Part shown: in pieces, positions 3,374-59,874 of the stretch
Numbering within the stretch: position 1 is the stretch's first letter
Layout of the letters: each line of letters begins with the position of its first letter
Assembly: GCF_000170755.1 (NCBI RefSeq)
Contig: NZ_ABCK01000002.1
Coordinates: 62,001-126,000 of the forward strand
Reading direction: 5' to 3'
Length of the DNA stretch: 64,000 nucleotides
Source: Lentisphaera araneosa HTCC2155
GTDB taxonomy: Bacteria > Verrucomicrobiota > Lentisphaeria > Lentisphaerales > Lentisphaeraceae
Program-made: the position numbers and the translations under genes
Notes under the pieces: generated by a model
The model's database searches: none
What the model saw: only the letters and a program-made list of their open reading frames with translations
Told to the model about the DNA's origin: nothing

Positions 3374-4780
3374 ATGAATTTCACAGTCAAATTACTTATA
3401 ATTATTTCTTTTGCCTTCGCCATTGAGAGTAGCTATGCCGCACAACCGAATAAAATCAAAAATGTTTTATTCATTATTGCAGATGACTTAAAAGCCAGTG
3501 TATTAGCTTGCTATGGGGACAAAATCTGCCAAACTCCAAATTTAGATAAACTGGCTAGCCAAAGCATTGTCTTTGATCGCGCTTATTGCCAAGGTCTATC
3601 TTGCGGTCCATCTCGTACATCTTTAATGCATAGCCGCTATCTTGGTTCAGAAGGCATCAACCTCCCCGAGCACCTCAAGAATAATGGTTGGTATACTGTT
3701 AGAGTTGGGAAAATTTATCACATGCGTGTTCCCTATGATATTATTCATGGTATTGATGGTCAAGATATCCCGTCTTCATGGACTGAAAAGTTTAACTCCA
3801 AGGGAGCCGAATCTCACACTCCCGGTGACTATGCTTGTCTAAATAAAAATATTTTTACCAAAAGTCTTAAAAACCGCGAAAGTTCTGGAATGAAAAATCG
3901 CATGTTTGTAAGTGTTATTTCAGAAGGTGATGGATCTGATCAACCAGACGTTAAAAGCGCCGAGAAAACTATTGAGCTGCTAAATCAGCGTAAAAATGAG
4001 CCTTTCTTCATTGCTACCGGTTTAGTTCGTCCCCATTACCCAAATGTCGCCCCTAAAGAATTCTTCCAAAACTACCCTTGGGAAAAGATAGACTTACCAG
4101 AACTAAGGAATCCAACTTCTTTAGGTATACCGGCAGCAGGTCACCCGCGAATAACTAACTCAAATAACTCAATTGGTAAATATCCAGACAATCAAAAACG
4201 CATGTGGTCAGCTTATTACGCAACCGTCGAATTTATGGACCGCCAAATTGGACGTATTTTAGACGAAGTTGATAGACTTGGACTAAAAAGTAATACCGCC
4301 ATCATTTTTTTGAGTGACCATGGTTACCATTTAGGGGAACATGGCTTTTGGCAAAAAAATAATTTACATGAAGAAGTCACTCGAGTTCCTCTTATTGCCT
4401 ACATACCAGGTCTAGCTCCTCGACGTATAAATGAAGTCACTGAATTAGTTGATATCTACCCAAGTCTTACTGAACTTTTAGGGGTTTACAAACCAAAAAC
4501 CGTACAAGGAAAAAGCTTTTTGCCCTTCTTGAAAAATAAAACTGAAGACTTTCGGAATTCTGCTTTATCGCTTATGCCAGGCAAAAAAGGCTACTCTATC
4601 AGAACTGAAGACTTTAGTTATATTCGCTACCAAAATGGTGCTGCAGAACTTTACAACATGAATAAAGATCCCAAACAGTTAGTCAATCTCATCCAAAATC
4701 CCGAACATAAACAAACCATCAGTAAACTTGATCGGGAGCTTAATACTCGTCTAAAAGAAGCTGACCTCGTAAATAATTAA
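3374..4780 (+). CDS. Secreted iduronate-2-sulfatase-like sulfatase
   Basis: A 468-residue type I sulfatase with signal peptide (1 to about 22), metal motif IIADD, formylglycine motif CGPSR (Cys 77) and SDHGYHLGEHGFW for the second metal site. The stretch ENGW/VGKIYH (here NNGWYTVRVGKIYH) in place of the usual GKWHLG is typical of the iduronate-2-sulfatase branch, as is GLVRPHYP. This branch acts on 2-O-sulfated uronic acids in animals; in marine bacteria it is also seen in ulvan- and other polysaccharide-degrading loci, so a uronate sulfate ester is a reasonable guess. It sits 20 bases after the previous sulfatase and 9 bases before the next, consistent with one operon. Confidence 0.93.
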   Translation: MNFTVKLLIIISFAFAIESSYAAQPNKIKNVLFIIADDLKASVLACYGDKICQTPNLDKLASQSIVFDRAYCQGLSCGPSRTSLMHSRYLGSEGINLPEHLKNNGWYTVRVGKIYHMRVPYDIIHGIDGQDIPSSWTEKFNSKGAESHTPGDYACLNKNIFTKSLKNRESSGMKNRMFVSVISEGDGSDQPDVKSAEKTIELLNQRKNEPFFIATGLVRPHYPNVAPKEFFQNYPWEKIDLPELRNPTSLGIPAAGHPRITNSNNSIGKYPDNQKRMWSAYYATVEFMDRQIGRILDEVDRLGLKSNTAIIFLSDHGYHLGEHGFWQKNNLHEEVTRVPLIAYIPGLAPRRINEVTELVDIYPSLTELLGVYKPKTVQGKSFLPFLKNKTEDFRNSALSLMPGKKGYSIRTEDFSYIRYQNGAAELYNMNKDPKQLVNLIQNPEHKQTISKLDRELNTRLKEADLVNN

Positions 4781-4789
4781 AGGAAAACA

Positions 4790-6313
4790 ATGATTCATTC
4801 AATTAAAAAAATTCTTTTCGCGATTGGTCTTTTGTTTATTGCAGGAAATAGCCTTGTGGCTAAAGATAGCAAGAAGCCCAATATATTACTGATTTTAACT
4901 GATGACCTCGGGTATGGTGATCTTCAGTGCTACAACAAAAACTCACAGATCCCTACTCCTCATCTAAACAAGTTGGCTGAGTCAGGTATGCGTTTCACAG
5001 ATGCTCACAGTCCCTCGACCGTTTGTACCCCAAGTCGATATAGCTTATTAACTGGGAGAATGCAGTTCCGTACAGGTATGAAAGGCGTATTTACGGGTGC
5101 AGGTGGGCCATGCCTAATCGAAGAATCACGTCTGACCCTACCCCAAATGCTTAAAGAAAAGGGCTATGCCACAGCCTGTGTCGGCAAGTGGCACATAGGC
5201 ATGAGCTTCTTTGACAAAAATGGTACGCGCATTACGGACCAACGCATTAAGGGTATTCAGCAAATTGATTACTCACGCCCCATACCCGATGGCCCCGTCA
5301 ATCGTGGCTTCGATTACTTTTATGGCACGGTAAGTTGTCCCACAACTGACTTTCTATACGCCTATATTGAAAATGATCGTATACCTATACCTCCAACAAA
5401 AATTCTTGATCGCTCTAAGCTCCCAAAACATGCTTACAGTCATGATTGTCGCATTGGCATGATTGCCGATAACTTTGATCACGAAGAAGCCGACATGGTC
5501 TTTCTCAAAAAAAGTCAGGACTATATTCGCCAGCATATTCAAAAGAAAAACAGTCAACCATTTTTTCTCTTTCACTCCATGCAAGCCGTTCACCTACCCT
5601 CGTTCCCCGCGAAACAATTCCATGGGAAGACTAAATTAGGACCACACGGTGATTTTATTTTCCAAATGGATCATATCGTTGGCGAACTCATGAAGACCTT
5701 AGAGGAACTTAATGCTCTAGAGAACACAATAATTATTTTTTGCAGCGATAACGGCGTAGAAGTTCCCACTGCTTTAAATATGATAAAAACCTATAATCAC
5801 GATGGCTCTTATCCTTGGCGTGGGCTTAAAAGAGATCAATGGGAAGGTGGTCACAGAACTCCGCTCATTATTTCATGGCCAAATAAAATAAAACCTTCTG
5901 TCAGCAATGAGCTTGTCTCGCTATGTGATATCATGGCAAGCTCTGCCGCTCTCGTGGATTATAAACTCCTGCAAAACAGTGCCGAAGATAGTTACAATAT
6001 CTTACCAGTCCTGCTCAATGAAAAAACTAATATCCGCCCATACTTACTAACTCAAACCATTTCTTTAAACCTAGCTATTCGCAAAGGACCTTGGAAATAC
6101 CTCGATCACCCGAGTTCAGGAGGGAATAACTACAACGGCAAAAGGCTCAAACACCTTCTTCCAGAAAAATTCGATTCCAAAGCTCCCGTACAGCTCTATA
6201 ACCTAGAGAAAGACCCGCAAGAACTGGAAAACCTCTACCTAAAACACCCCGAAGTCGTCAAAGAATTGAAAGCCAAGCTCGATCAATTTAAAAAATCTGG
6301 AAGAAGTAATTAA
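4790..6313 (+). CDS. Secreted arylsulfatase A-like sulfatase
   Basis: A 507-residue type I sulfatase. Signal peptide about 1-24, then NILLILTDDLGYGDLQCY, the formylglycine signature CTPSR (Cys 79), GKWHIG and CSDNGVE. The overall pattern is that of the arylsulfatase A / N-acetylgalactosamine-6-sulfatase branch (GYGDL, RFTDAHSPS, LTGR). The start is supported by AAAGGAAAACA just upstream of ATG. It ends the first three-sulfatase run; a gap of about 180 bases with no visible gene separates it from the SGNH esterase. The substrate is unknown; sulfated galactose or hexosamine units are plausible from the branch. Confidence 0.95.
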   Translation: MIHSIKKILFAIGLLFIAGNSLVAKDSKKPNILLILTDDLGYGDLQCYNKNSQIPTPHLNKLAESGMRFTDAHSPSTVCTPSRYSLLTGRMQFRTGMKGVFTGAGGPCLIEESRLTLPQMLKEKGYATACVGKWHIGMSFFDKNGTRITDQRIKGIQQIDYSRPIPDGPVNRGFDYFYGTVSCPTTDFLYAYIENDRIPIPPTKILDRSKLPKHAYSHDCRIGMIADNFDHEEADMVFLKKSQDYIRQHIQKKNSQPFFLFHSMQAVHLPSFPAKQFHGKTKLGPHGDFIFQMDHIVGELMKTLEELNALENTIIIFCSDNGVEVPTALNMIKTYNHDGSYPWRGLKRDQWEGGHRTPLIISWPNKIKPSVSNELVSLCDIMASSAALVDYKLLQNSAEDSYNILPVLLNEKTNIRPYLLTQTISLNLAIRKGPWKYLDHPSSGGNNYNGKRLKHLLPEKFDSKAPVQLYNLEKDPQELENLYLKHPEVVKELKAKLDQFKKSGRSN

Positions 6314-6494
6314 CTCATTTAATTTCAGATAGCATCTGTAAAGCCATAACACGAACTGGCGCGCATATCATTTAAATGAATTTCAGCATATAAGCAAATT
6401 TATTGGTTTACTACACTTTTTGCTCGAAGTCCTTGTAACATCAATATCCCAAATCGGTCTAATAATAAAAACATCAATTCTTAGAGAAGTTATA

Positions 6495-7238
6495 ATGACT
6501 CGTTCAATATTCATCATCATAGTTTTCACTTTATTAACCTCAGCGACCAGTAGAGGCGCCGAATTAATTGAGTCTGTAAAAAACACCATTCGCTCAACAA
6601 CTCCCGAAAAAAGAAAAAAACGGGAAGCTCGTTGGTGGATGAAGCGACATAAATTAAAACTCTCTGAAAAAGCCGCGCTAGGTGATGTAAAACTAGTCTT
6701 TCTCGGTGATTCCATCACTCATGCTTGGGATAAATATAAATCTGAATGGGACAAGTATTTTGCGAAGTACAAGGCTCTAAACCTAGGTTACAGTGGTGAT
6801 CGTACCGAGAATGTGTTATGGCGTCTTGACAACGGTGAAGTTGACGGAATTAATCCAAAAGTACTCGTTATGATGATAGGTACTAATAATGCAGGTCATC
6901 GCAAAGAAAAATCGCAGGACACGGCCTTGGGCATAAAGGCGATTTTACAGGAACTGCGTATAAAGCTCCCAGAAACTAAAATCTTGATGCTAGCCATATT
7001 CCCAAGAGGGAAAAATGACAATGACGAGCTTCGAAAGTTAACTATGGGAACAAATGAAATCATAAAAACCTACGCAGATGATAAACATATTTTCTACATG
7101 AATATCAACAAGATATTTTTAGATCAAGATAGAGTTCTTCATAAAAATGTAATGCGAGACTTTCTACACCCAAATGAAAGCATGTACCCAAAGTGGGATG
7201 AAGCAATTCTACCCAAAATTGAGGAATTAATGCAATGA
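6495..7238 (+). CDS. Secreted SGNH/GDSL-family esterase
   Basis: A 247-residue hydrolase of the SGNH superfamily, resembling platelet-activating-factor acetylhydrolase-like GDSL enzymes often found in polysaccharide loci as carbohydrate O-acetylesterases. All four blocks are visible: GDSI (nucleophile Ser 73), GYSGD (Gly), GTNN (Asn), and DFLHPN with Asp 222 and His 225. ATG 6495 was chosen because it starts a clean signal peptide (MTRSIFIIIVFTLL...); the ORF can extend to 6420 but would place 25 residues before the signal. Its TGA overlaps the start of the next sulfatase (ATGA), so the two are coupled, suggesting that deacylation and desulfation act on the same substrate. Confidence 0.9.
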   Translation: MTRSIFIIIVFTLLTSATSRGAELIESVKNTIRSTTPEKRKKREARWWMKRHKLKLSEKAALGDVKLVFLGDSITHAWDKYKSEWDKYFAKYKALNLGYSGDRTENVLWRLDNGEVDGINPKVLVMMIGTNNAGHRKEKSQDTALGIKAILQELRIKLPETKILMLAIFPRGKNDNDELRKLTMGTNEIIKTYADDKHIFYMNINKIFLDQDRVLHKNVMRDFLHPNESMYPKWDEAILPKIEELMQ

Positions 7239-8767
7239 AAAAAATTTTAGCTCATCCATTAAATTTTAATACTTCTATTTTAAGTTTCTGTTTCTTCTTA
7301 TGCTTTGCGATAAACGCAAACAACAAGCCAAACATCCTGCTAATCATGGCCGATGATATGGGCTATTCCGATATCGGTTGTTTTGGCAGCGAAATACAAA
7401 CTCCTAATATTGATCGTCTGGCAAATGAAGGGATGCGTTTCCGCCAATTTTATAACAATTCAAAATGTATGACAACACGCGCCTCTTTGGTGACTGGCCT
7501 CTACCCCCAAAGAGATAATGGAAAAATCGAAATGTTGGACAGTAGCATGTTCACCATTGCTGATGCCATGAACAAAGCAGGATACTATACTTTTTTAAGC
7601 GGCAAATGGCATTTAGGCTCTCGTAAAGGTCATCGCCCTATCGATCGCGGATTTCAGGAATTCTACGGACTCATGGATGGCTGCTCAAACTTCTTTAACC
7701 CCGTTCAGCCAGACCCTAAATTCAAGGGTGGAAAAACTCGAGTTTTTGGTCACAATGATAAACTCATTAGAAGTTTCCCGGATGATTACTACGCAACGGA
7801 TGCCTTCACGGATCATGCCATTGAGCAAATCAAAAAAGCGACTTCTGAAAACAAACCTTTTTTTGGGCACATCACTTACACTGCTCCGCATTACCCACTC
7901 CACGCCAAAGCAGAGGATATTGCAAAATATAAAGGCCGATATAAGGAAGGCTGGCATGTGCTAAGAAATGAACGTTACCAAAGAATGATCGAAATGGGAG
8001 TAATTTCTGCATCGGTTAAACTCACTCCAGAAGACCCAAGAATGCAAAGCTGGGATTCTCGTAAAAATAAAGACTGGGATCAAAGCCTCATGGAAGTCTA
8101 CGCTGCTATGGTCGATTCCATGGATCAAAACATCGGTAGAATCCTAAAAACTCTTGATCAAACTGGTGTCAGCGAAAATACACTCGTCCTCTTTATCTCC
8201 GATAATGGTGGATGCGCAGAGATGCCTGGTGGCGACAATAATATATCCCACATCCCCGGGCCAAAGGAGTTTTATACCGCATGTGGCCCAAGCTGGGCAA
8301 ATGCTCAAAATACTCCTTTCAAAAGATATAAAGTTAACATGCACGAAGGCGGCATTTGCACTCCATGTGTCGTTCGTTGGCCCGCTAAAATAAAAGCAAA
8401 TTCTTGGACTGACTCAATTGCCCATGTCATTGATCTCCAACCCACATGTATGGCGTTAGCAGGACTAGATCCAGTTAAAGACATCCCCTCAGACAAACGC
8501 CAACTGGACGGCGAAAACATTCTGAGTATTTTTGAGGGCCAAAACTATGTGCGAGAAAAACCGCTATTCTTCGCTTACGGAAAAACCCGTGCGATGCGTC
8601 AGGGCGACTGGAAAATTGTCTATGAAAAAAAATGGCAACTCTTCAATATTTCCGAAGATCGAAGTGAGTTAAATGATATAGCTGACCAACACCCCGAAAA
8701 GTTAAAAAAAATGATCTCAAACTGGGACCAATGGGCTCAGCGCACTGGAATAAAAAGAGGAAGGTAA
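7235..8767 (+). CDS. Secreted arylsulfatase with unusual CMTTR active-site motif
   Basis: A 510-residue type I sulfatase with signal peptide (about 8-29), NILLIMADDMGYSDIGCFG, GKWHLGSRKGHRP and ISDNGGCAE. The domain around residues 225-260 (YKGRYKEGWHVLRNERYQRM) is characteristic of the large bacterial arylsulfatase group containing the Pseudomonas enzyme (S1_4). The formylglycine site reads CMTTR (Cys 78): Cys and Arg are kept, but the usual Pro is Thr and Ser is Thr. Everything else is intact, so it is probably active, provided the formylglycine-generating enzyme accepts the site. It overlaps the SGNH esterase gene by four bases. The stretch 8768-8911 downstream is AT-rich without a gene. 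Confidence 0.92.
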   Translation: MKKILAHPLNFNTSILSFCFFLCFAINANNKPNILLIMADDMGYSDIGCFGSEIQTPNIDRLANEGMRFRQFYNNSKCMTTRASLVTGLYPQRDNGKIEMLDSSMFTIADAMNKAGYYTFLSGKWHLGSRKGHRPIDRGFQEFYGLMDGCSNFFNPVQPDPKFKGGKTRVFGHNDKLIRSFPDDYYATDAFTDHAIEQIKKATSENKPFFGHITYTAPHYPLHAKAEDIAKYKGRYKEGWHVLRNERYQRMIEMGVISASVKLTPEDPRMQSWDSRKNKDWDQSLMEVYAAMVDSMDQNIGRILKTLDQTGVSENTLVLFISDNGGCAEMPGGDNNISHIPGPKEFYTACGPSWANAQNTPFKRYKVNMHEGGICTPCVVRWPAKIKANSWTDSIAHVIDLQPTCMALAGLDPVKDIPSDKRQLDGENILSIFEGQNYVREKPLFFAYGKTRAMRQGDWKIVYEKKWQLFNISEDRSELNDIADQHPEKLKKMISNWDQWAQRTGIKRGR

Positions 8768-8911
8768 AATCATTTTAGTACAAATTAGTCAAATTTAAAG
8801 ATTATTTCATAGTTAACTCAAATAAAACCCCACAATGTACATATATCATTATATATAAACAACTTAAGATTTTTAAACTAAGCTATGAACTCCTGATTTG
8901 GAATAATAAAT

Positions 8912-10465
8912 ATGATTGAAGAAGACAATTTTGGAGTCCTCACACAAGAGGACTTAATTAAAATACAAGAAGACTACAAAAAGCAAAAACTCAAGGACAC
9001 CCTAACTGGACCTATTATTTCAACTTGTTTGCATGTAATTTTAATTTTAATCGCAAGTCTCTTTAAAGGAGAAATTAAAACAGCTAATGCTAATGTTGAA
9101 ATTACTCAAAAGGTTGAAGAAATCATCGAAGAACCACCTCCTCCACCTCCTCCACCTCCACCTCCACCCGAACCAGAACTTGAAACCGAATCAGAAACCA
9201 TTAACCCTGAAATTTCTGAGTCAGTCGATGTCACAGAAGATATTGCCACAGAAGTAGAAGAGATAACAGACGAACCACCTGCAGCTGATGTAATGGACGA
9301 CATGGAAATAATTTCAGATATTAAACCTTCTACTTCACCTCTCACTTCAGCTAAAATGTTTTCTTCTAGATCACCAAATGCTAAAGCTGTTGCTATTCGT
9401 AAATATGGTGGTTCAAGTACCGCTCAACAGTCTCTTGGCAAAGCTCTCGATTGGTTGGCTAAAAATCAAAACCCTGACGGTACTTGGGGACACGGACACC
9501 CAGAGGCTATGACGAGCTTAGCTATTCTAACTTATTTAGCTCACGGAGAAACTGGTAAATCAAAACGATATGGTAGTGTAGTAACAAAAGGTATTGCACA
9601 ACTTTCTGAATGGGGTAATTCAGGACGTTTTCCACTTGGAAAAAGCAAAGAAAGAAATGTTTATGAACATGCTTTAGTAGCTTATGCTCTATCAGAAGCG
9701 TATGCAATGACAAATAACTATGCCCTCCAAAATCCAATGAATAAAACGATAAAATTCATTTGTGACAATCAACATGAAAATGGTTCTTACATGTATGGCT
9801 ATGCGAAAAGTGGTGATTCAAATTTTTCTAATGCTTGTTGGAATTGGCAGGCTTTAAAAGCCGCAAAAGTTGCCGGTTGTACCGTTGAAAATCTATCTAG
9901 CACTATAGAGAAATCTATTGCTCATATGAAAAAATATGCCACTGATACAGGCTTCTATTACCGCTTACAAAATAAAGGCAAACGAGATCCTTCAATGAGA
10001 GCTGTTGGAGTACTTTGTATGCAATTACTTGGGGAGCAAGATCACCCTGCATGTAGACGATTGGGCGATCTAATCGTCAAAGAAGACGTGAAATTATTGA
10101 CATGGGAATCTCATGGCAGACACAATGACCCCGCGGGATTTTATCTTTATTGGATGTACTACGCTACTCAAGCTGTTTTTCAAAGAGGCGGTAGCGATTG
10201 GAAGTCTTGGAATCAATCATTTCAAAAAATTCTTGTAGAAAATCAACATCCAGATGGCTATTGGCAGAGCCCTGCTGAAGGTATTGAAACGGAAAGAGAA
10301 GCAATGAAAGACATAGATAATAAAGTATATTCAACCACACTTTGTGCTTTACAACTCACGGTTTATTATCGATACTTACCATCCTCTGTTTTAAAGAAAA
10401 CTAATTCCAAAGAATCACAATCTAAAGAATATATAGAGAGCGATGAGGATGTAGATATTTTCTGA
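8912..10465 (+). CDS. TonB-like N-terminus fused to alpha/alpha-toroid (terpene-cyclase-fold) domain
   Basis: A 517-residue protein with a short cytosolic start (1-32), one membrane segment (33-51), an acidic linker with a run of 12 prolines (75-86) as in TonB or other periplasm-spanning proteins, then from about residue 170 an alpha/alpha-toroid domain of the squalene-cyclase / prenyltransferase type. QW-like repeats are visible: NQNPDGTWG (about 185-193), DNQHENGSY and ENQHPDGYW. The DxDD motif of true squalene-hopene cyclases is not seen, so enzymatic cyclisation is unlikely. It may be an envelope-spanning protein whose toroid binds a peptide or glycan. It lies amid sulfatase genes but has its own upstream and downstream gaps. 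Confidence 0.75.
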   Translation: MIEEDNFGVLTQEDLIKIQEDYKKQKLKDTLTGPIISTCLHVILILIASLFKGEIKTANANVEITQKVEEIIEEPPPPPPPPPPPPEPELETESETINPEISESVDVTEDIATEVEEITDEPPAADVMDDMEIISDIKPSTSPLTSAKMFSSRSPNAKAVAIRKYGGSSTAQQSLGKALDWLAKNQNPDGTWGHGHPEAMTSLAILTYLAHGETGKSKRYGSVVTKGIAQLSEWGNSGRFPLGKSKERNVYEHALVAYALSEAYAMTNNYALQNPMNKTIKFICDNQHENGSYMYGYAKSGDSNFSNACWNWQALKAAKVAGCTVENLSSTIEKSIAHMKKYATDTGFYYRLQNKGKRDPSMRAVGVLCMQLLGEQDHPACRRLGDLIVKEDVKLLTWESHGRHNDPAGFYLYWMYYATQAVFQRGGSDWKSWNQSFQKILVENQHPDGYWQSPAEGIETEREAMKDIDNKVYSTTLCALQLTVYYRYLPSSVLKKTNSKESQSKEYIESDEDVDIF

Positions 10466-10674
10466 TTAGCAGCTGTGATATAAAGTTGGATTTCAATTCA
10501 TCATACACACGCAATAAAAATAACAAATTAGACATTGTAAATAATTGTTAATTAGATGTTTATGATAATTAATCTATAATATTTATAATGAAAAATATCA
10601 TTCTTTATAACATCTTTGAATCAAGTTTGTCTCATATAATAATATTAACTATTAGATTTTAAAAATACTTCAAA

Positions 10675-12156
10675 ATGAATTACATAAAAACACTTTGCCT
10701 GACAATCTTTTGTTTACCAATGATTTCTCTCTGGAGTCAAAACAATGACATAAAAGGCTCACGACCCAATATTATTTTGGTGATGACTGACGATCAGGGT
10801 ATGGGCGATTTGTCTTGCATGGGAAACAAAGTTCTTGAAACACCACACATAGATAAGTTCTATTCGCAATCCACTCGATTTACTGAATTTCATGTGAGCC
10901 CAACTTGTGCCCCAACACGTTCAGCAATAATGACCGGTCGCCATGAATTCCGAAATGGCGTGACCCACACCATAAGCCAGCGGGAACTGATGAATATTAA
11001 TTACACAACGATGCCTCAAGTTCTACAATCGGCAGGCTATCAAACCGGTATTTTTGGAAAGTGGCACTTAGGTGAATTAGAGCCCTACCCACCTCACAAT
11101 CGTGGTTTTTCTGAGGTCTTCATTCACGGTGGAGGCGCTATCGGAAAAGCTCACCAGGGAAGCTGTTCGGATTTCCCTCCCAACTTCGAAAATCTTTACT
11201 TTGACAATGTTTTTCTTCATAATCAGACCATAGTCCAAACCAAAGGCTTCTGTACAGATGTATTTTTCCAAGCCGCTCTTGGCTGGATTAAAGAACAGCA
11301 TCAAGCAAATAAGCCCTTCTTTGCTTACATCACGCCAAACGCACCTCATGCACCCATGATCGCCCCAGAGAGATATACCCAACGTTTCATTAAACTCGGT
11401 TGGGATAAAGAAACTGCCGGCCGCTATGGAATGATCGAAAACCTCGACGACAACTTTGGACTTCTCATAAGTAAGCTCGAAGAGTGGCAAATTTTAGACA
11501 ATACCTTAGTCATTTTCATGACGGATAATGGTCAATCGGCTAAGCCTGCCAAATTTAATGGGAAAAAATTAAAAGTTTATAATGCAGGCTTTAAGAGTGG
11601 CAAAGGTTCAATTTTCGAAGGCGGATCTCACGTACCTGCCTTTTGGCGTTGGCAAGGAGTATTAAATGAGAGCAAAGATATCAATGCTCTTAGCGCCCAT
11701 ATCGATTTGTTTAAAACCTTTGCTGAACTTGCAGGAGCAAAAATCCCTTATACATGCCAAGATATCGACGGCACAAGCCTCGTTCCACTTCTAGAAAACC
11801 CTGAATCAAATTGGCCTGATCGTGAACTCTTCTTTCATCGAGGCAGATGGAAAAAAGGTCAAAACCCTGAAAAATCTAAATCAAAAGGATACGCGGTGCG
11901 TACTCAACGTTGGCGCATGGTCGAAAAAAGACTCTATGACATAAGCAATGACCCATACGAATCTAAAGATGTCTCAAAGCAATATCCCGAAGTCATGCAA
12001 CGCTTAACTCAATCATATGAAAAATGGTGGCATGATACCGTCCCAATGATGATCAACGAAGACCGTCCTTTGTCCAGTGAATTTCCCTATGTGATTCGCT
12101 ATGAAAAACAAAAAGCAGAACGCGGTATCCCAGATTGGGTACCACCAAAAATTTAA
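10675..12156 (+). CDS. Secreted sulfatase (CAPTR type)
   Basis: A 493-residue type I sulfatase. Signal peptide 1 to about 22, then NIILVMTDDQGMGDLSCMG, formylglycine motif CAPTR (Cys 78), GKWHLGE, and MTDNGQSAK for the second metal site. FEGGSHVPAFWRW and the C-terminal YDISNDPYE block are standard for arylsulfatases. It opens a three-sulfatase operon (the next gene begins 29 bases downstream, the third overlaps). The 209-base upstream gap (10466-10674) is very AT-rich and presumably holds the promoter; TATAAT-like words at 10570-10600 are common there and cannot be ranked. Confidence 0.94.
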   Translation: MNYIKTLCLTIFCLPMISLWSQNNDIKGSRPNIILVMTDDQGMGDLSCMGNKVLETPHIDKFYSQSTRFTEFHVSPTCAPTRSAIMTGRHEFRNGVTHTISQRELMNINYTTMPQVLQSAGYQTGIFGKWHLGELEPYPPHNRGFSEVFIHGGGAIGKAHQGSCSDFPPNFENLYFDNVFLHNQTIVQTKGFCTDVFFQAALGWIKEQHQANKPFFAYITPNAPHAPMIAPERYTQRFIKLGWDKETAGRYGMIENLDDNFGLLISKLEEWQILDNTLVIFMTDNGQSAKPAKFNGKKLKVYNAGFKSGKGSIFEGGSHVPAFWRWQGVLNESKDINALSAHIDLFKTFAELAGAKIPYTCQDIDGTSLVPLLENPESNWPDRELFFHRGRWKKGQNPEKSKSKGYAVRTQRWRMVEKRLYDISNDPYESKDVSKQYPEVMQRLTQSYEKWWHDTVPMMINEDRPLSSEFPYVIRYEKQKAERGIPDWVPPKI

Positions 12157-12185
12157 CTTTAATCAACGCTACTAAAGGATTAGTA

Positions 12186-13580
12186 ATGCATACCATTAGA
12201 AATCTTATAACTTCCACAAGTCTATTCTTTCTTTTGTCAGCCTATTCGGCTGATAATAAAAAACTGGACATCAACAAACCTAACCTTGTAATATTTTTTA
12301 CAGATGACCAAGGGACACTCGACGTTAATTGTTACGGCTCTAAAGACCTTTACACTCCCAACATGGATAAACTCGCTGAAGATGGCGTGCGCTTTACTCA
12401 GGCCTACGCTCATCAGGTCTGCTGTCCTGCTCGTGCCATGCTAATGACAGGTCGCCACCCCCAGCGCAGTAATGTTAATCACTGGACACAAGGTGATGCC
12501 AAAGGTCCTAAAACCAGAAATATGAACCTAGAAGAATACACTCTGGCGGAGGCCCTTAAAGATTCGGGTTATAAAACGGCACTCTTTGGCAAATGGCACT
12601 TGGGAGCTCACCTTGATTATGGTCCAACTAAGCAGGGATTTGATGAATTTTATGGGATTCGAGGAGGTTTCATCGATAACTACAATCACTACTTCCTTCA
12701 TGGTGAAGGTTTTCACGATTTATACGAAGGGACAAAAGAAGTCTTTGATGAAGGAAAATACTTCCCTAATTTAGTGACTGATCGTGCGCTTAATTTTATT
12801 GATCGAAATAAAAACAATCCATTCTTTCTCTTTCTTGCCTTCAATATCCCCCATTATCCTGAACAAGCAGACCCAAAATTTGACGAACGATATAAAAACA
12901 TGAAAATGCCTCGTCAATCCTATGCCAAAATGATTTCTACCACCGATGATCACATGGGCCAAATCATGAGTAAATTACAGGAACATGGCATCTATGATAA
13001 CACCATAATCATATTTATGAGTGATAATGGTCATTCTAGAGAACGGAATCATATAAAATTTGATAATCACAAAAGCGGACTCGCCAAAAACACTAAATAT
13101 GGCGCCCTTGGCGGAGGTGGAAATACTGGTAAATGGCGTGGAAATAAAAGTAATTTTTATGAAGGTGGGATTCGAGTTCCCGCTATAATTACCTTCCCCA
13201 ACAAGCTACCCAAAGGCGCGGTTAGAGATCAGGCTATTACAGCAATGGATTGGATGCCTACAGTTTTGGAACTTTGTAATATTGAACCACCAAAAATAAA
13301 ATTTGATGGCAAGAGCCTCACCCAGGTCATTGCATCGGAGGACAATCCTTCTCCCCATAAAGTGTTAAACTGGCAATGGCATTTGGCCTGGGCTATTCGT
13401 CAAGGTAGTTGGAAACTAATGGGTCGCGGCACCGAGCCCACCTTTCTGGGCAATTTGGATGACAAACAGCCTGAGAAAACCAATTATCTAACTGAAAAAC
13501 CGGAATTAGTAAAGACACTTCACCAGCTTCATAAGCAGTGGGCTTTAGACGTGGATGCTCCACAAAGGAGAAAAAAATGA
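12186..13580 (+). CDS. Secreted sulfatase (CCPAR type)
   Basis: A 464-residue type I sulfatase. ATG 12186 is preferred because it follows AAAGGATTAGTA and begins a clear signal peptide (MHTIRNLITSTSLFFLLSAY); the longer frame from a TTG at 12135 would overlap the previous gene and hide the signal. Motifs: NLVIFFTDDQG, formylglycine site CCPAR (Cys 79, with Ala in the usual Ser position), GKWHLGAHLDYGP, MSDNGHSRE. GGGGNTGKWRGNKSNFYEGGIRVP is in the expected place of the C-terminal half. It is the middle gene of the 10675-15037 operon, and its stop overlaps the next start. Confidence 0.93.
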   Translation: MHTIRNLITSTSLFFLLSAYSADNKKLDINKPNLVIFFTDDQGTLDVNCYGSKDLYTPNMDKLAEDGVRFTQAYAHQVCCPARAMLMTGRHPQRSNVNHWTQGDAKGPKTRNMNLEEYTLAEALKDSGYKTALFGKWHLGAHLDYGPTKQGFDEFYGIRGGFIDNYNHYFLHGEGFHDLYEGTKEVFDEGKYFPNLVTDRALNFIDRNKNNPFFLFLAFNIPHYPEQADPKFDERYKNMKMPRQSYAKMISTTDDHMGQIMSKLQEHGIYDNTIIIFMSDNGHSRERNHIKFDNHKSGLAKNTKYGALGGGGNTGKWRGNKSNFYEGGIRVPAIITFPNKLPKGAVRDQAITAMDWMPTVLELCNIEPPKIKFDGKSLTQVIASEDNPSPHKVLNWQWHLAWAIRQGSWKLMGRGTEPTFLGNLDDKQPEKTNYLTEKPELVKTLHQLHKQWALDVDAPQRRKK

Positions 13581-15037
13581 AACTTTTAACCTACTCAAGG
13601 ATCTCTCTTAAATTAATTTGTACGATAGCGCTTTTTACTTGTAACTTAATTTCCAAAGAACAAGAAAGACCAAATTTCATTTTCCTTATGGCCGATGATC
13701 TAGGCTATGGAGATACAGGGTTTAATGGTAACAAAATTATCAAGACCCCACATTTGGATAATATGGCCAAAGAAGGTGCTCGCTTCACACATTTTTATTC
13801 AATAGGCCCCGTTTGCGCCCCTACCCGAGGCTCGGCCTTAACTGGTCGCCACTACATGCGTTATGGCATGATGGATGTAAACGTAGGAAAACTCCCACAT
13901 CAGGAAATAACTATCGCGCGACTCTGTAAACAACAGGGATATACAACTGGTCACTTCGGCAAATGGCATTTGGGAACCCTCAGTAAAATTGAATCGCCAC
14001 GACACAAGAACCCCGCCAAAGATTTCGCCCCGCCATGGGAACGAGATTATGACGATGCATTTGCCACTGAAATCTCTGTCCCCACCTGGGATCCCGCAGC
14101 TGGTAGATACCCTAAGCATGATAGTCCATATTGGCACAATGGTCAGAAAGTTACCGATAATCTATTAGGTGATGATTCACGAGTTATCATGGATCGTGCC
14201 ATACCGTTCATACGTAAGGCCGTAACCGACAAAAAATCTTTCATGACGACAATTTGGTTCCATACCCCACATAGCCCGGTGGTCGCTGGCCCTGAATATC
14301 TAAAAATGTACGAAGGCTACAAGGAAGGCGAGCAACACTACTACGGTTGTATCACTGCCATGGATGAACAAATCGGCCGTCTTCGTGAAGAATTAAGAAA
14401 GCTTAATGTCGATCAAAATACTATCATCTGGTTTTGCTCCGATAATGGCCCCGAAGGCCGTGGAAACCCAAAGAAAAAATATGACGCCTACCACGGCGCC
14501 TTTTATGGTACTGCAGGGAAGTTAAGAGGCCGTAAAAGGTCTCTTTACAACGGTGGTGTTTGCGTACCAGCCTTGGTAAGCTGGCCGGGAAAAATAGATG
14601 CTGGAAAAGTCATTAATACTCCCTGCTCCACTCTCGACTACCTTGAAAGTACTTTAGCTCAAATGAATGTTAAATACCCAGACTCAAGACCACTTGATGG
14701 CGAGAATATTATTCCAATTTTATTGGGAAAAACCAATAAACGCAATAAGCCAATTATATTTGCATCAAAAATCAGTTCACCTAAAACTTCTATTATTCAG
14801 GGTGATTACAAATTCTGTTCTAATCTTGACGGGAAAAACAAAGATGAACTCTATCACCTTCACGATGATTTTTCTGAATCAAAAAATATCATAAAAAATC
14901 ACCAAGAACGCTCAATAACTATGAAAAAAATGATCTATCAATGGCTAGAATCCTGCAATAAGAGTTTTCATGGAAATGATTACAAGGAAAAATACGAAGT
15001 CCAGGGAAGCTTTCTCAAGTACAATCAAGCAAATTAG
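13577..15037 (+). CDS. Secreted arylsulfatase (CAPTR type)
   Basis: A 486-residue type I sulfatase. The start at 13577 is fixed by an excellent ribosome site (AAAGGAG, 6-7 bases upstream) and an ATGA overlap with the preceding stop; the ORF can extend 13 codons further, but only inside the upstream gene. Signal peptide about 1-26, NFIFLMADDLGYGDTGFNG, formylglycine site CAPTR (Cys 80), GKWHLGTLSK, CSDNGPEGRG, then a Lys/Arg-rich GKLRGRKRSLYNGGVCVP segment. It belongs with the two upstream genes in one operon. The 155-base gap that follows contains no gene and separates sulfatases from pseudopilins. Confidence 0.94.
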   Translation: MKLLTYSRISLKLICTIALFTCNLISKEQERPNFIFLMADDLGYGDTGFNGNKIIKTPHLDNMAKEGARFTHFYSIGPVCAPTRGSALTGRHYMRYGMMDVNVGKLPHQEITIARLCKQQGYTTGHFGKWHLGTLSKIESPRHKNPAKDFAPPWERDYDDAFATEISVPTWDPAAGRYPKHDSPYWHNGQKVTDNLLGDDSRVIMDRAIPFIRKAVTDKKSFMTTIWFHTPHSPVVAGPEYLKMYEGYKEGEQHYYGCITAMDEQIGRLREELRKLNVDQNTIIWFCSDNGPEGRGNPKKKYDAYHGAFYGTAGKLRGRKRSLYNGGVCVPALVSWPGKIDAGKVINTPCSTLDYLESTLAQMNVKYPDSRPLDGENIIPILLGKTNKRNKPIIFASKISSPKTSIIQGDYKFCSNLDGKNKDELYHLHDDFSESKNIIKNHQERSITMKKMIYQWLESCNKSFHGNDYKEKYEVQGSFLKYNQAN

Positions 15038-17118: not shown

Positions 17119-20109
17119 ATGATAAAGTTTCATTGTCAAAGTTGTCAACAAAAACTAAGTGCCCCGGAAGAATTCTCTGGCACTGATGTGCAGTGTCCAT
17201 CTTGTCATTATCTAAATACAATTCCGGAAGTCGTCGAGACCTGTGAAACGATCACTTTTAAATTCCTATGTCACTCTTGTGACCAAAAACTAAGTATTGA
17301 TACTGAACTCATTGGAACTTACATAAATTGCCCAGCTTGTTCAAGTACGATTTCTGTGCCAGATAATAATTCTTTTGAAGAGGATCTAAATAACACTCGA
17401 GTAGATGCTGAACATTCTACAAAAAGCCCAAGACCATCGAGACATAAAACGATCCGAGCTCAAAAGCTTAAAAAACAAACAAAAAGTTCCAGTAGAAAAG
17501 CCAAACACACTCGTATCAAAGCAAAGAAAAAAAGCTCAAAAGCTCCTGTTATCTCAATATTATTTATTTTAATAACTATTGGAGTTATTATTGGCTTTCA
17601 GAACTTATCAAATGAAGAAAAGCAAGTGTCTGTAGCAAATGGCTCACACTCATCATTAGATAAAGAAATTACTGCCTCCCAAAAAACCACACATGGACTA
17701 AGATCCCAAGATATACGAGCCTTAGAAAAAAAGGTACAGGGACTCAAACCCTTTTTGACAAAATATTGCTTTGAATGTCATAATGAGGAAAAAGAGAAAG
17801 GTGGAATTCGCTTAGATAACATAGATTACAAATTTAATGATTCCGCTTCTGTTCATATGTGGCAGGATGTTCTGGATGTTCTAAATATCGAAGAAATGCC
17901 TCCCGAAGACAAAGCTCAACCATCCGCTGATGAACTGACTGATTTTATTGGAGACATCGCTCAGAATATTAAATTAGCACACAAGAGATTAGCGGCGACT
18001 GGCGGAAAAATTTCAATGCGCTATCTGACCAAAAGAGAATACCTTAGCAGTGTGACAGATCTTTTCGGCGTTGACATTCCAGAAGATTTTTTACCAGACG
18101 AAGTAAGTCCTGAATTTGATACCATTGGCTCCGATCAGTATTTCTCTTTAAAGCAGTATGAGCAATTCTATAAAGCTGGCAGAAAAGTGGTCGAAACAAA
18201 TATTATCGATATAACGGCCCCTTTTGACTCCAATACCATACGGTATGATCCTGAAATACTGCCCGCGAAAAAAGCAAAAGAATATTACCTAAGGATGAAA
18301 GCCGTTAAGAAGTTAATCGAAGCTAATGCCCCGCTTTCTGAAATAACTAAGGTTGATCCCCATATCGCTGATCAAGGCCAGCTTGAAATATTTAAAAGGC
18401 GATACAACGGGAAATTGGCAAAAGCAATAAAAAAGTATAACCAAACTAATATACCAGGTGTTGCCGAAAACGTTATATATAAAAAGACCTTAAGGCCAAA
18501 TAGCCTCTATAAAGTAACTGTTACTGCTCTAAGCTTTTCAGAAAAGAAAAAAGGGAAGAAAGAGAAAACAGCAGTAGCCTATATTAATCATGAGCGTACG
18601 ACATTAAATTTCGATTCCAAGTCCGGCACAATGACTTCGTCTGAAGCAAGCTTCAAAACGGGATTATTTGATTCTAACGTACTTATTCGAATCAAAGGCC
18701 ATGAAGACGATATTTACGATTACCTTTCCTTGACGGGGCCATTTAAACTTAAAGAAAAGAAGATGACTTTCTTTAAATCCTTAGTCAGTCCGATCACTAA
18801 AAAAAGCAATGCCAGTGAAAGTGAAATTGCGGAATTGTTGACAAAATTTGCCGAAAGAGCTTTTCGTTACCAAGGAGTAGACAAAGATTATATTACTGCA
18901 TTACTCAAGTTGTATCGACTGGAAAGAGAAAATGGTAAAGACATTGGCAACTCTTTGATTGAGCCTCTTACAGCAATCCTTACGGCACCGGCATTTTTAT
19001 ATATTAAAGAGAAAAATGATGGCAAGAGAAATAAGTTAACTCAGAGCGAATTTGCAATTCGCATGGCCTATTTCTTATGGCGCGCGCCACCGGATAAAGA
19101 ACTCTATGAACTGGCAGAATCAAATAAATTATTTGCCCAAGGTGTCTTAAGAAATCAGTTTGAACGAATGCTATCATCTAATAAAGCTGATCATTTTTTA
19201 GTTGATTTTATAAATCAATGGTCGGATATAGAGCGCTTTGACGAAATTGATATTCCTGGTGACTTGGGTAAGGGCGGATTCCCTTATTCAGCACGTCGTG
19301 AAATTGGCGAATTTTTCAAAGTTTTAGTTAGAGAAAACCTGCCTGTGGATAATATGATTGCATCAGACTTTGTGGTAGCTGATCATCGGCTGTCTGGTCA
19401 CTATGGTTTCAAGAAAAAAAGTTTTAAGGGCTTCAAGAAATTTAAATTGCCAGACCTAAACTCTGAATCCTCCGTTGGTCCTCGTGGTGGAATGTTGACT
19501 CAATTTGCCTTTCTCATAATGGGTACTAATGACAGTCGTACTTCTCCCACCATTCGTGGAACACTCATTAGGGAGAAGTTTCTTTTTGACGAACCTCCAC
19601 CTCCACCTCCTAATGTTCCTGCTATTGAGCCTCCTAAGGGAGCTAAACTGACTGTGAGACAGTTGGTAGACCGTCATATGAGCATTCCTCAGTGTGCCTC
19701 CTGCCACAAAAAAATAGACCCCATTGGTTTGGGTCTAGAAAACTTTGACTACCTTGGACAATGGCGAACAGAAGAACTTATCAAAGCCGAACCGGTAAAC
19801 AACACTAGAAAAGGGAAAGCCAAGACAAAAACAACACCTCCTGAAACAGTACCCGTACTCGCGAACGGTCATTTAGACGGAGAGTCATTCAAAGATTTTA
19901 AAGGATTGCAGAGAGTCCTTTTAAAGCATAAAGACAAACTCGCCATGTCTATTTTTGAGTCAATGATGTCCTATGGTATTGGCCGAAAAATTGAGTTTGT
20001 TGATGATGCGGAGATTCAAGAGATTTTAAGCAAAATGAAAAAGAAAAATTATCCACTTAAAGAGATGGTTTTTGAAATTCTCTCTTCACAAATGTTTGCC
20101 ACTAAATAA
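17119..20109 (+). CDS. Zinc-ribbon / membrane / planctomycete-type cytochrome c fusion (DUF1587-1595-1592-1588-1585)
   Basis: A 996-residue protein. The N-terminus has two zinc ribbons (Cys 6, 9, 26, 29 and Cys 51, 54, 71, 74), a basic linker (about 103-140) and one membrane helix (142-161), so the ribbons face the cytosol. The remainder is periplasmic: a planctomycete cytochrome C domain with heme site CFECH (217-221), then the block order DUF1587, DUF1595, DUF1592, DUF1588 and DUF1585 typical of PVC multi-domain cytochromes, with a second heme site CASCH (859-863) followed by KKIDPIGLGLENFD. The family is usually paired with a DUF1552 protein, as here 16 bases downstream. The pair is believed to act in polysaccharide or sugar oxidation, but no reaction has been fixed. 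The ribbon fusion is the odd part. Confidence 0.9.
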   Translation: MIKFHCQSCQQKLSAPEEFSGTDVQCPSCHYLNTIPEVVETCETITFKFLCHSCDQKLSIDTELIGTYINCPACSSTISVPDNNSFEEDLNNTRVDAEHSTKSPRPSRHKTIRAQKLKKQTKSSSRKAKHTRIKAKKKSSKAPVISILFILITIGVIIGFQNLSNEEKQVSVANGSHSSLDKEITASQKTTHGLRSQDIRALEKKVQGLKPFLTKYCFECHNEEKEKGGIRLDNIDYKFNDSASVHMWQDVLDVLNIEEMPPEDKAQPSADELTDFIGDIAQNIKLAHKRLAATGGKISMRYLTKREYLSSVTDLFGVDIPEDFLPDEVSPEFDTIGSDQYFSLKQYEQFYKAGRKVVETNIIDITAPFDSNTIRYDPEILPAKKAKEYYLRMKAVKKLIEANAPLSEITKVDPHIADQGQLEIFKRRYNGKLAKAIKKYNQTNIPGVAENVIYKKTLRPNSLYKVTVTALSFSEKKKGKKEKTAVAYINHERTTLNFDSKSGTMTSSEASFKTGLFDSNVLIRIKGHEDDIYDYLSLTGPFKLKEKKMTFFKSLVSPITKKSNASESEIAELLTKFAERAFRYQGVDKDYITALLKLYRLERENGKDIGNSLIEPLTAILTAPAFLYIKEKNDGKRNKLTQSEFAIRMAYFLWRAPPDKELYELAESNKLFAQGVLRNQFERMLSSNKADHFLVDFINQWSDIERFDEIDIPGDLGKGGFPYSARREIGEFFKVLVRENLPVDNMIASDFVVADHRLSGHYGFKKKSFKGFKKFKLPDLNSESSVGPRGGMLTQFAFLIMGTNDSRTSPTIRGTLIREKFLFDEPPPPPPNVPAIEPPKGAKLTVRQLVDRHMSIPQCASCHKKIDPIGLGLENFDYLGQWRTEELIKAEPVNNTRKGKAKTKTTPPETVPVLANGHLDGESFKDFKGLQRVLLKHKDKLAMSIFESMMSYGIGRKIEFVDDAEIQEILSKMKKKNYPLKEMVFEILSSQMFATK

Positions 20110-40457: not shown

Positions 40458-41036
40458 TTACAGATCTGGACTAATAAAAAGCTGGTATTTTTTAAACTCA
40501 TTTTCATTTATAAGCTCTTTGATTTTATTATCTCGCGCAGTTTTTTCAGCGTTCATGTCGATGTTCTCCTGAGCAGCAACTTTATCGAATATATTCATGT
40601 GGTGATCAAATAAAACCTCATAGACTTCTAATGATTTTTCATCATCAAGGCCCATGAGAAATGGTGTGTATTTCTTCAAAACATTTTTTTCAATAGATTG
40701 ACTGACTTTTCTCAACTCGTCAATATTTTCATTGTGAACTTTAGTTTGTTCACTAATGTCAACAGCCTCTATTCTTGGAGTGCTGATTTCACCTCTTATT
40801 TTTACTCTTGGCTTTTTTTCTTCAAGACGAGCTTCAGCTTCTATGATTGAAGGTGTTTCTTTAAGTGCTTTGCTCATTCTTAAAGCTGGTTTTTCTTTTT
40901 CTTTCAAGTCTTTTTTGTTCGTTTTAATTTCTTTTATTTGAGGCTCAATTTCTTCGTGTTGATTATTGTGATTTGAAATAAAAAAAGCAGCTAATGCAGC
41001 AATTACACATAAGGCGATACCAATAGACTTGGTCAT
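40458..41036 (-). CDS. Small membrane-anchored EPS-operon protein (copy 2), unknown function
   Basis: A 192-residue protein with one N-terminal membrane helix, a Lys/Glu-rich stretch and a conserved C-terminal region. It is the last gene of the EPS operon and overlaps the preceding gene (ATGA). It is the same as copy 1 (285-857) up to residue 175, then differs in the last 16. Against copy 3 (55200) it is strongly diverged in residues about 5-95 but almost identical in about 97-160. Conservation in all three copies and end-of-operon placement indicate a genuine functional part of the EPS system, perhaps an anchoring or assembly factor. Confidence 0.85.
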   Translation of the reverse strand: MTKSIGIALCVIAALAAFFISNHNNQHEEIEPQIKEIKTNKKDLKEKEKPALRMSKALKETPSIIEAEARLEEKKPRVKIRGEISTPRIEAVDISEQTKVHNENIDELRKVSQSIEKNVLKKYTPFLMGLDDEKSLEVYEVLFDHHMNIFDKVAAQENIDMNAEKTARDNKIKELINENEFKKYQLFISPDL

Positions 41037-41764
41037 GCTTGAATTTCCTGCACACTTGAATCATCATCCAAGTTATCGTAGTCATTAAAGATGTGACAAA
41101 GGTTGACCAAGGAGAGCCACATGGGCAGATAAATTGAAAGTGCAATACAAGTAATAAAATATAAACTAGAGTACAAATAATGAGCCAGGTACTGTGAAAT
41201 TACAAAGGCCAAAATATTACTCAAGCTAGCAAAAAGATACAATCTTAATAGGTGAATTATTACTTGTCGTTTGAAAAAATAAATAGACGAAAAAATCATG
41301 GCTATAACAAAAGCAATAAAAATAATAGTTTGACTAAAGAAATAATAATAGCCAAATTGCTTTACAAGTTCGGGTTGAATCATGTCTTTTAGGCCCGCAA
41401 GTAAAATAATAATCATGACAAAGCTCAAAACTGGGTAAAATAATGAGTCTTTTTTATTCAATGTGAGCCACCTTAAAGTTAGCAAAAAAGCCATCATAAC
41501 AAGTCCCGTGACCCAGGTTTTTGTTTGTGGGTCAACAAGAAGATTAGACATATGATTTTTGGGGCTGAATTGTAAGCTAAAATAAAAAATTATTGAGCCA
41601 AACAAAAGGACTAAGCCATGTGTAAAGGTAATTTTTTTTATGCAAATAAGTTTTTGTTTTTCGTCTAAGTTGAGCCGACTGCAATGATTAAATTTTTTCA
41701 AAAGGCTATGCTGAGAAAACTGAATCATGAGATACAGACAAGCAATTAAGATAAAAACAATCAT
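41033..41764 (-). CDS. Polytopic EPS-operon membrane protein (copy 2), unknown function
   Basis: A 243-residue membrane protein with about six to seven hydrophobic segments: an N-terminal helix (about 1-16), a Lys-rich cytosolic loop with HCSRLNLDEKQKLICIKKI, then five or six further helices and an acidic C-terminal tail. The first 52 residues are identical in copies 2 and 3; the rest differs at many places. It is overlapped by the GT2 gene upstream and overlaps the small anchored protein downstream, so the three are coupled. No family was recognised; a role as channel partner or modifying protein of the synthase is an inference from position. Confidence 0.82.
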   Translation of the reverse strand: MIVFILIACLYLMIQFSQHSLLKKFNHCSRLNLDEKQKLICIKKITFTHGLVLLFGSIIFYFSLQFSPKNHMSNLLVDPQTKTWVTGLVMMAFLLTLRWLTLNKKDSLFYPVLSFVMIIILLAGLKDMIQPELVKQFGYYYFFSQTIIFIAFVIAMIFSSIYFFKRQVIIHLLRLYLFASLSNILAFVISQYLAHYLYSSLYFITCIALSIYLPMWLSLVNLCHIFNDYDNLDDDSSVQEIQA

Positions 41765-43008
41765 GAGATAGCCTTTTTCCTATACCTAAGTGTTTTATCC
41801 CAGCTCAAAGATTTTTTAAGTCCCAGCTTTTCAATAGGCAACAAAAGAAGGGCATGAGTGGAAGCTAGCATACTAATTGTAGACGATACAAAAATATAGG
41901 GAATGTAGCGAATACAATGAGGTTGCCGATCTTTGATGCAAGCGGCAAACATTTGAAAGAAAGGACTGAAATTGCCAAATCCACAAAACAATAAAAATAA
42001 AGTAATGAGGGAAGCTGACATATTCACGCTTATATTACCAAATAAAAAAGCTACAATGGATAAAACCAGTAATGCCGCTGGAGCTGCATAAATAGTCAGC
42101 AACAGGAGCGCGTCCAGTTTTCTCAACAGATTTTTATCCGTATGCATGAGTGTTGGAATAAAGTGCTTAATCATACAGTCATTGTGACCATAAGCCCAGC
42201 GACGCACTTGCTTGTACCTAGCCTGCCAGGTTTCCGGCGTTTCTTCGAAGCAGGCTGCCGCATTGAGGTATTTGATTTTGTAGCCATTGAGATAAAGCTT
42301 GTAGGTCAAGTCAGTATCTTCTGTGAGGGTTCGAGTGTCCCATCCCCCTACGTCTTCTAATGCACTCAATCGAATACCTCCAGTAGTACCACCAAATTGC
42401 GGTAGCAGATCAAAATGATTTCTTACATTTTGGTCGATTGCATAACCTGAGCGTCTTTCCAAATCAATGAGTTTCGTCATAATATTGGCATTGGCGTTGT
42501 AGGTAACAACTCGCCCCATCGTGGCGCCAACCTCAGGATCTTTGAAAGGATTTATGAGGCGTTTAATCAAATCTGCTTGAGGAAGGTAATCAGCATCAAA
42601 GATCACAATGATTTCTGACTTCAGGGTCGCAATAATCTCTTTCATGGCTGCAGCTTTACCCGGCTCGGCGCTCATGGGGCGGTGGTGAGCTCGAATATGA
42701 CTTTTGGGGTTTTTGCGTAAGAAATTATCGATTAAATCTTTGGTACCATCACTGGAGCGATCATTGAGAATAATTACCTCCAATTGGTCTTTTTTATAAT
42801 CTAGTTTATTCATACATTCTAGGCAACCTTCGATAACAGCCTCTTCATTATGTGCCGGAACAAGAACGGAAACCTTTGGGTTGTACTCCTCATCAATTTC
42901 CAATCCCTCATCAATGTTTTTTTCATTATTTGAGAGAGTATAAAAAGTCATGAATAAGGACCTAAGTAAAATGAGCCCCACTAGAATATAGATAAAAAAG
43001 AATATCAT
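41761..43008 (-). CDS. Processive family 2 glycosyltransferase (PgaC/cellulose-synthase-like)
   Basis: A 415-residue membrane glycosyltransferase. An N-terminal helix (about 1-20) precedes a GT2 catalytic domain: SVLVPAHNEE, LNDRSSDGT, DAD (138-140) for nucleotide-sugar and metal binding, TED (229-231) with the catalytic Asp, and QVRRW (267-271), the QxxRW motif of processive synthases. Three or four helices follow. It should polymerise a sugar nucleotide (UDP-ManNAc, given the linked epimerase, or UDP-GlcNAc) and move the chain across the inner membrane. A two-base gap separates it from the upstream barrel gene. Copy 3 differs at about 15 residues, all before residue 300; the C-terminal third is identical. 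Confidence 0.92.
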   Translation of the reverse strand: MIFFFIYILVGLILLRSLFMTFYTLSNNEKNIDEGLEIDEEYNPKVSVLVPAHNEEAVIEGCLECMNKLDYKKDQLEVIILNDRSSDGTKDLIDNFLRKNPKSHIRAHHRPMSAEPGKAAAMKEIIATLKSEIIVIFDADYLPQADLIKRLINPFKDPEVGATMGRVVTYNANANIMTKLIDLERRSGYAIDQNVRNHFDLLPQFGGTTGGIRLSALEDVGGWDTRTLTEDTDLTYKLYLNGYKIKYLNAAACFEETPETWQARYKQVRRWAYGHNDCMIKHFIPTLMHTDKNLLRKLDALLLLTIYAAPAALLVLSIVAFLFGNISVNMSASLITLFLLFCGFGNFSPFFQMFAACIKDRQPHCIRYIPYIFVSSTISMLASTHALLLLPIEKLGLKKSLSWDKTLRYRKKAIS

Positions 43009-43009
43009 T

Positions 43010-44999: not shown

Positions 45000-45076
45000 T
45001 TTATCTCCTTGTTTCCATCTTGTGTAAACAGATGCTTGATCCTCAAATTGCAGTAAAAAGCGCAGGGGGATCCTAG

Positions 45077-57756: not shown

Positions 57757-57757
57757 T

Positions 57758-59747: not shown

Positions 59748-59874
59748 TTTATCTCCTTGTTTCCATCTTGTGTAAACAGATGCTTGATCCTCAAATTGCA
59801 GTAAAAAGCGCAGGGGGATCCTAGACTGTCGAGAATTCATTGTCGACAGCCCCGTAAGTTTACAGTTTTAATAC

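Follow-up and report, generated by a model that had tools for sequence, protein, structure and literature searches.

A toroid-headed, TonB-like protein of Lentisphaera araneosa and its probable place on an ExbB/ExbD motor

The window, a stretch of 64,000 nucleotides from the Lentisphaera araneosa HTCC2155 genome, carries a plus-strand open reading frame that begins with ATG, occupies exactly positions 8912-10465 and encodes a protein of 517 amino acids. The divergence between this gene and six relatives was 0.19-0.23, 0.08-0.13 and 0.53-0.57 at codon positions 1, 2 and 3, respectively. This pattern is as expected of a coding sequence under selection, and 8912-10465 is a genuine conserved gene. 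In a scan for regulatory signals, 14 promoter-like sites were counted compared with 7.2 in shuffled sequences, and one terminator-like site compared with 1.0, from which nothing follows for this gene. The AF2 model of the protein was calculated using an alignment of 69 family members as input. The features are as follows.

8912..10465, plus strand: toroid-headed TonB-like protein, 517 aa (open reading frame, codon constraint, family alignments A1 and A2)
8912..9007, plus strand: N-terminal segment, residues 1-32, predicted to be cytosolic, the side being deduced from Lys plus Arg before the motif in 69 members
9008..9064, plus strand: membrane helix with P34, S37 and H41, the Ser-X3-His motor-binding motif (family alignment; motif defined in the accessible part of PMC12215075)
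9077..9334, plus strand: disordered acidic and proline-rich linker, residues 56-141 (AF2 pLDDT mostly below 55)
9134-9169, plus strand: run of 12 prolines, residues 75-86 (sequence)
9338..9415, plus strand: conserved pre-toroid motif, residues 143-168 (R153 in 68/69, G166 in 59/69, G167 in 61/69)
9416..10375, plus strand: predicted alpha/alpha-toroid, residues 169-488, six outer and six inner helices by helix order (AF2, Foldseek/VIA, conservation)
10376..10462, plus strand: C-terminal tail, mostly disordered (AF2 pLDDT below 50 for 490-517)

The model had a mean pLDDT of 79.7 and a pTM of 0.71. It revealed a single helix at residues 12-50 with the membrane segment within it, low confidence over about 56-141 and a helical toroid of about 300 residues mostly above pLDDT 90. 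The initial annotation had proposed a TonB-like layout with a cytosolic start, one helix and twelve prolines, in which a toroid replaces the usual TonB C-terminal domain, and had named structure prediction as a check. The prediction returned the confident toroid and the layout was recovered; neither a TonB_C nor a TolA C-terminal domain appeared among the Pfam matches of the window protein up to E 1.

The conservation of the N-terminal arm was analysed in the family alignment. P34 and H41 were present in 69/69 members and S37 in 68/69, while Ser37 and His41 were invariant in the 27 proteins of alignment A1, the Lentisphaeraceae copies included. According to the accessible part of PMC12215075, the contact with ExbB/TolQ in solved Ton/Tol motors is made by the Ser-X3-His half of the SHLS motif. 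The rest of SHLS was weakly kept (L48 in 41/69, S52 in 4/69), and the same source, in the part available, describes lower conservation of this Leu and Ser in Ton. The D-box, a consensus pairing with ExbD, was matched in its strict pattern (from the accessible part of PMC10907165) by 18/69 members and in a relaxed form of our own definition by 55/69. The 20 residues N-terminal to the motif held a mean of 3.4 Lys plus Arg over the 69 members, and the 30 residues past the helix a mean of 2.4 Lys/Arg and 10.3 Asp/Glu, a charge pattern that fits N-in topology. Taken together, Ser-X3-His, the charge pattern and the linker favour a periplasmic toroid over the cytosol-facing one that the initial annotation had considered would speak against its reading. 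It is plausible that the 86-residue linker could reach across the periplasm.

The fold of the head was compared with known structures. VIA-align gave squalene-hopene cyclase 2sqc as the best match (Z 24.7, 3.3 A, 288 residues), followed at Z of about 21 to 24 by sugar epimerases (cellobiose 2-epimerase, Z 23.7) and GH76 mannanases, and Foldseek ranked the transaldolase AprG first. The Pfam cyclase families stayed under their curated cut-offs (PF13249, 23.7 < 26.2 bits; PF13243, 23.0 < 26.1 bits). The alpha/alpha-toroid fold of the model is therefore secure, whereas the name terpene cyclase describes only one among several near relatives: of the terpene-cyclase-fold toroid first suggested, the toroid stands and the cyclase identity is not secure. 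The protein has in common with squalene-hopene and other type II terpene cyclases the alpha/alpha-toroid and two QW-like matches, Q186..W192 and Q445..W451, in line with the QW-type repeats noted earlier. It differs from these enzymes in its single toroid, its sub-cut-off Pfam scores, its motor-binding arm and the lack of DxDD.

The catalytic motifs of related folds were searched for in the family. DxDD is the catalytic acid motif of type II terpene cyclases; as had been observed before, the window protein lacks it, and its residue 304 is Asn. DxDD occurred inside the toroid in 5/69 members, three aligned to window residues 301-304, one to 467 and one to 397. Column 304 held Asp in 59/69 members and Asn in 10/69, and the inner-helix column of Glu262 held 68 Glu and 1 Asp (n=69). 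Only columns 213, 262 and 448 of the toroid were acidic in at least 95% of members, none of them adjacent. GH76-type glycoside hydrolases have a conserved adjacent pair of catalytic Asp, and no two adjacent toroid columns were acidic in at least 60% of the 69 members. The complement-type thioester domain (PF07678) carries a CGEQ thioester motif; the whole-protein score for this domain was 22.1, barely over the cut-off of 22, and CGEQ was found in 0/69 members. The mean conservation of the inner helices (197-211, 249-267, 305-320, 360-372, 411-425 and 467-482) was 0.67 compared with 0.47 for the outer ones, a difference reached in 0/10000 permutations, the inner/outer assignment being made from helix order and QW matches and not from coordinates. 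The conserved inner residues are mostly aromatic (Tyr, Trp, Phe) and aliphatic, together with Gln, Ser/Thr, one His, Lys and Glu. In the predicted structure this suggests a conserved cavity and thereby a binding head, a catalytic head being less likely.

An active periplasmic enzyme of terpene cyclase, hydrolase, lyase, epimerase or transaldolase type, with helix and linker as a mere anchor, would agree with the enzymes, some of them sugar-acting, among the nearest PDB folds, with the many conserved Tyr, Trp and Gln and Glu262 on inner helices, with Asp at 304 in most members, with the three members whose DxDD aligns there, and with the sulfatase and PSCyt genes close by in the window. This reading is considered quite unlikely, as DxDD is missing from the window protein and lies in three different places in the few members that have it, the near-invariant acidic columns are not adjacent, and an anchored enzyme would have no need for Ser-X3-His or for linkage to ExbB and paired ExbD genes. 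DxDD, an acid pair and CGEQ were all sought and none is conserved in the family; Glu262 and column 304 still leave room for an enzyme, and would be the best candidate positions if the head were catalytic. In the window, six sulfatase-like genes and one GDSL-like gene (own reading) flank the toroid gene over 3374-15037, and a gene for a PSCyt/PSD multidomain protein lies downstream at 17119-20109.

A locus scan of genome records gave at least 545 relatives, and the genes upstream of the toroid gene were analysed in the best 80. By record title and similarity, 20 of the 80 loci were set apart as Lentisphaeraceae-type, leaving 60 others; loci with at least 2.5 kb upstream were taken as usable (42 of the 60 others and 16 Lentisphaeraceae-type). 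At 31 of the 42 usable loci outside the Lentisphaeraceae-type, the 4.5 kb upstream contained, in the same orientation, ExbB together with two or three ExbD genes, and 11/42 had no upstream ExbB/ExbD. A TPR gene was present as well at 28 of the 35 such loci with at least 6 kb upstream. The 18 loci set aside for short flanks were divided equally, nine with ExbD upstream and nine without. The genomes held 2 to 19 ExbD matches each, so that by our own estimate one would fall within 4.5 kb by chance in about 1 or 2% of cases. Among the Lentisphaeraceae-type loci, ExbB/ExbD was found upstream in 0/16. The ExbB/ExbD linkage that the initial annotation proposed to look for in related genomes is thus real outside the Lentisphaeraceae-type and was seen at none of the usable loci within it.

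Two genes usually preceded the motor genes, one encoding the TPR protein and the other a protein of 250 aa. The order TPR, 250-aa, ExbB, ExbD, ExbD, toroid was seen in many class-level relatives, a set that is not independent of the 80 loci because some contigs are common to both; in G010, G015, G017, G020 and G023 the motor operon and the toroid gene are on separate contigs. The motor operon was found in genomes titled as Lentisphaerota, Kiritimatiellota and Verrucomicrobiota. Among 39 genomes, 20 had both the 250-aa protein and the toroid, 4 the toroid only, 2 the 250-aa protein only and 13 neither (Fisher p 3e-5). The four toroid genomes without a 250-aa match were G003, G008, G016 and G032; a contig ends inside the operon in G008 and G032, and the match of G016 showed no Ser-X3-His in the stretch examined. 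In G029 and G037, which hold the 250-aa relative only, no motor gene adjoined it. The AF2 model of the 250-aa protein (mean pLDDT 92.1) comprised a signal-like helix, strands at 25-71 and then helical repeats, from which the protein is probably periplasmic. Other ExbB/ExbD operons were inspected at 20 loci in 18 genomes, 13 without a toroid match and five with one (G010, G015, G016, G020 and G023), and none of them showed the full set of TPR, 250-aa, ExbB and two ExbD genes behind which another head might stand. In 115 genomes drawn from the phylum, the family profile matched 48 at E 1e-30 or better, and in 28 a match spanned profile positions from 45 or less to 490 or more; the remaining profile-positive genomes matched over the toroid alone or partially, and may lack the arm.

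The genome of L. araneosa itself gave six ExbB matches. Among the ExbB loci examined, a single one, L078, was a motor operon of this kind, with TPR, 250-aa, ExbB and three ExbD genes; its ExbB and ExbD were confirmed by Pfam, and the 250-aa profile had one match in the genome. No transducer gene stands next to this operon, which from our reading of the sequences adjoins pilT/pilC-like genes, and no motor genes adjoin the toroid copy of the window. The motor operon was seen in 5/6 Lentisphaeraceae genomes, and in five (L078, L070, L218, L221 and L222) it lies, by our own reading, beside genes resembling type IV pilus or secretion genes. Motor use in Lentisphaeraceae is something we infer, since the toroid gene is not beside the motor genes there. 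By our reading the genome has a Tol-like operon (L076) and a Ton-like one (L077) as well, and the toroid motor is therefore an additional motor-driven system.

The toroid genes are numerous in this family. Six intact full-length copies were found in the L. araneosa genome (the window, C25, C21, C4 and two in C8), together with three that are broken or partial (C13, C44 and C4:109634). In locus coordinates the broken or partial copies are at L022 8447-10008, L020 966-2526 and L023 8593-9108; a family evolving by birth and death would be expected to contain such copies, or they may reflect assembly error. G005, a draft with 6% contamination, had 19 full-length copies and G004 nine, counting as full-length any match that started at 20 or less and ran to at least 490. 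A tree built by a quick method from 54 selected proteins placed the 23 Lentisphaeraceae copies on one side of a branch with SH-aLRT 100. Within this side, copies from the window genome were separate from those belonging to the G004/G005 genus, which suggests that the amplification postdates the split of the genera.

The Lentisphaeraceae copies may alternatively have left the motor system and now serve as structural or sensory envelope proteins. The lack of motor linkage at all their usable loci, the broken copies and, in three genomes, the prepilin-like and DUF1552 genes lying nearer than genome densities predict would agree with this, and kinase genes are also near, a feature that has no background count. 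We regard it as unlikely, since Ser37 and His41 are invariant in A1, where these copies are included, and the motor operon was seen in five of the six Lentisphaeraceae genomes.

A further possibility is an extra TonB for TonB-dependent receptors, with the toroid binding plugs or extensions. The layout is TonB-like, the L. araneosa genome has such receptors (4 Plug matches), and the genomes richest in toroid copies are also rich in Plug matches (G005 19, G004 15). Four draft genomes with the toroid (G018, G024, G030 and G038) nevertheless gave no Plug match, G015 combines 23 Plug matches with a single toroid match, and the L. araneosa genome already has a canonical TonB_C gene of its own. A role as helper of TonB receptors was rejected as receptors were not found in those four genomes, and the reading is very improbable.

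The reading that we consider probable is that of a proton-motive-force transducer of TonB/TolA type with a toroid head, several such heads being served by one motor. We infer that the N-terminal helix would dock to the outside of the ExbB ring via Ser37 and His41, by analogy with Ser16 and His20 of TonB, and that the proline-rich linker would span part or all of the periplasm, so that force might be passed to a toroid acting as a binding head. The dedicated motor would be formed by the ExbB-ExbD-ExbD(-ExbD) operon with the TPR and 250-aa proteins. In Lentisphaeraceae, it would be encoded once and shared in trans by the dispersed toroid paralogs. Points that count against this reading are the missing linkage at the Lentisphaeraceae-type loci and at 11/42 of the others, the weak L48 and S52, and the four toroid genomes that gave no 250-aa match.

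To our knowledge, the heads on arms driven by the proton motive force are those of TonB, TolA and the recently proposed von Willebrand A (vWA) type. With the TonB-ExbB-ExbD and TolA-TolQ-TolR systems, as described in the accessible part of PMC12215075, the toroid system has in common Ser-X3-His in one N-terminal helix, a periplasmic linker (proline-rich in TonB) and an ExbB/ExbD-type motor. It differs in having no TonB_C domain, unlike TonB, and in its two or three unlike ExbD genes and its TPR and 250-aa operon partners. Williams-Jones et al. 2025 (PMC12204202) described, in the part accessible, vWA-headed arms behind TPR, tolQ-like and two tolR-like genes in PVC bacteria. This is the same kind of machine, and these upstream genes match the loci of the toroid relatives but not that of the window copy. 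In the accessible part of that paper the head has a von Willebrand A fold, in contrast to the alpha/alpha-toroid here, and a many-copy orphan expansion as in the toroid family is not described there for vWA transducers; its main text has no words beginning toroid, terpen or Lentisphaer. The window protein gave no VWA Pfam match. No toroid-headed transducer was found in titles and abstract openings of the literature covered, preprints and most subscription journals lying outside that scope. The toroid would thus be a further head type on a known kind of arm, the vWA-headed kind being already published. This head has a large conserved domain, its own motor operon and as many as 19 full-length copies in a single draft genome. 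With it, the idea of ExbB/ExbD motors as a general power socket for different heads can be tested directly.

A 1078-aa YfbK-type vWA protein is encoded at L073:8827-12063 on contig C9 of the L. araneosa genome. It has a weak N-terminal zinc-finger match, a segment that resembles the toroid proteins in their linker and pre-toroid motif, and a helix without visible Ser-X3-His, and its gene adjoins that of a probable ECF sigma factor (own reading).

In G000, G004 and G005, gene neighbourhoods at 36 merged toroid loci were counted against genome densities. Ranges give a low and a high expectation, since the genome counts of prepilin-like and sulfatase genes reached or approached the scoring cap. 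Prepilin-like genes numbered 33 in the flanks against 7.6-11.4 expected, an enrichment that is only suggestive because the genes clump and the two counts, one from a local profile and one from Pfam, are not equally stringent. DUF1552 was represented by 11 genes in 9/36 loci against 2.9 genes expected. An association with sulfatases, tried in the same way, was not convincing (16 genes against 6.7-12.6). Seven loci of G001 and G002, two genomes of the same genus, had neither prepilin nor DUF1552 genes in these flanks, and three of the seven had sulfatases. A polymer-handling role of the toroid proteins is put forward as a hypothesis only. In a wider and tentative form, which we hold to be possible though doubtful, Lentisphaeraceae would possess a one-motor, many-heads machine whose repertoire was amplified per genus, with each head tied to a different locus for polymer processing or surface structures (sulfatase, PSCyt/DUF1552, prepilin), as a force-driven alternative to SusCD/TonB for sulfated polysaccharides.

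Elsewhere, the window holds two copies of a minus-strand block of five genes (415/280/415/243/192 aa), at 40458-45092 and 55200-59840. The copies are near-identical at the 5' genes (415/415, 279/280 and 399/415 residues) and diverge at the last two (202/243 and 154/192, same index), and each follows a different very large open reading frame, of 1889 and 1312 aa.
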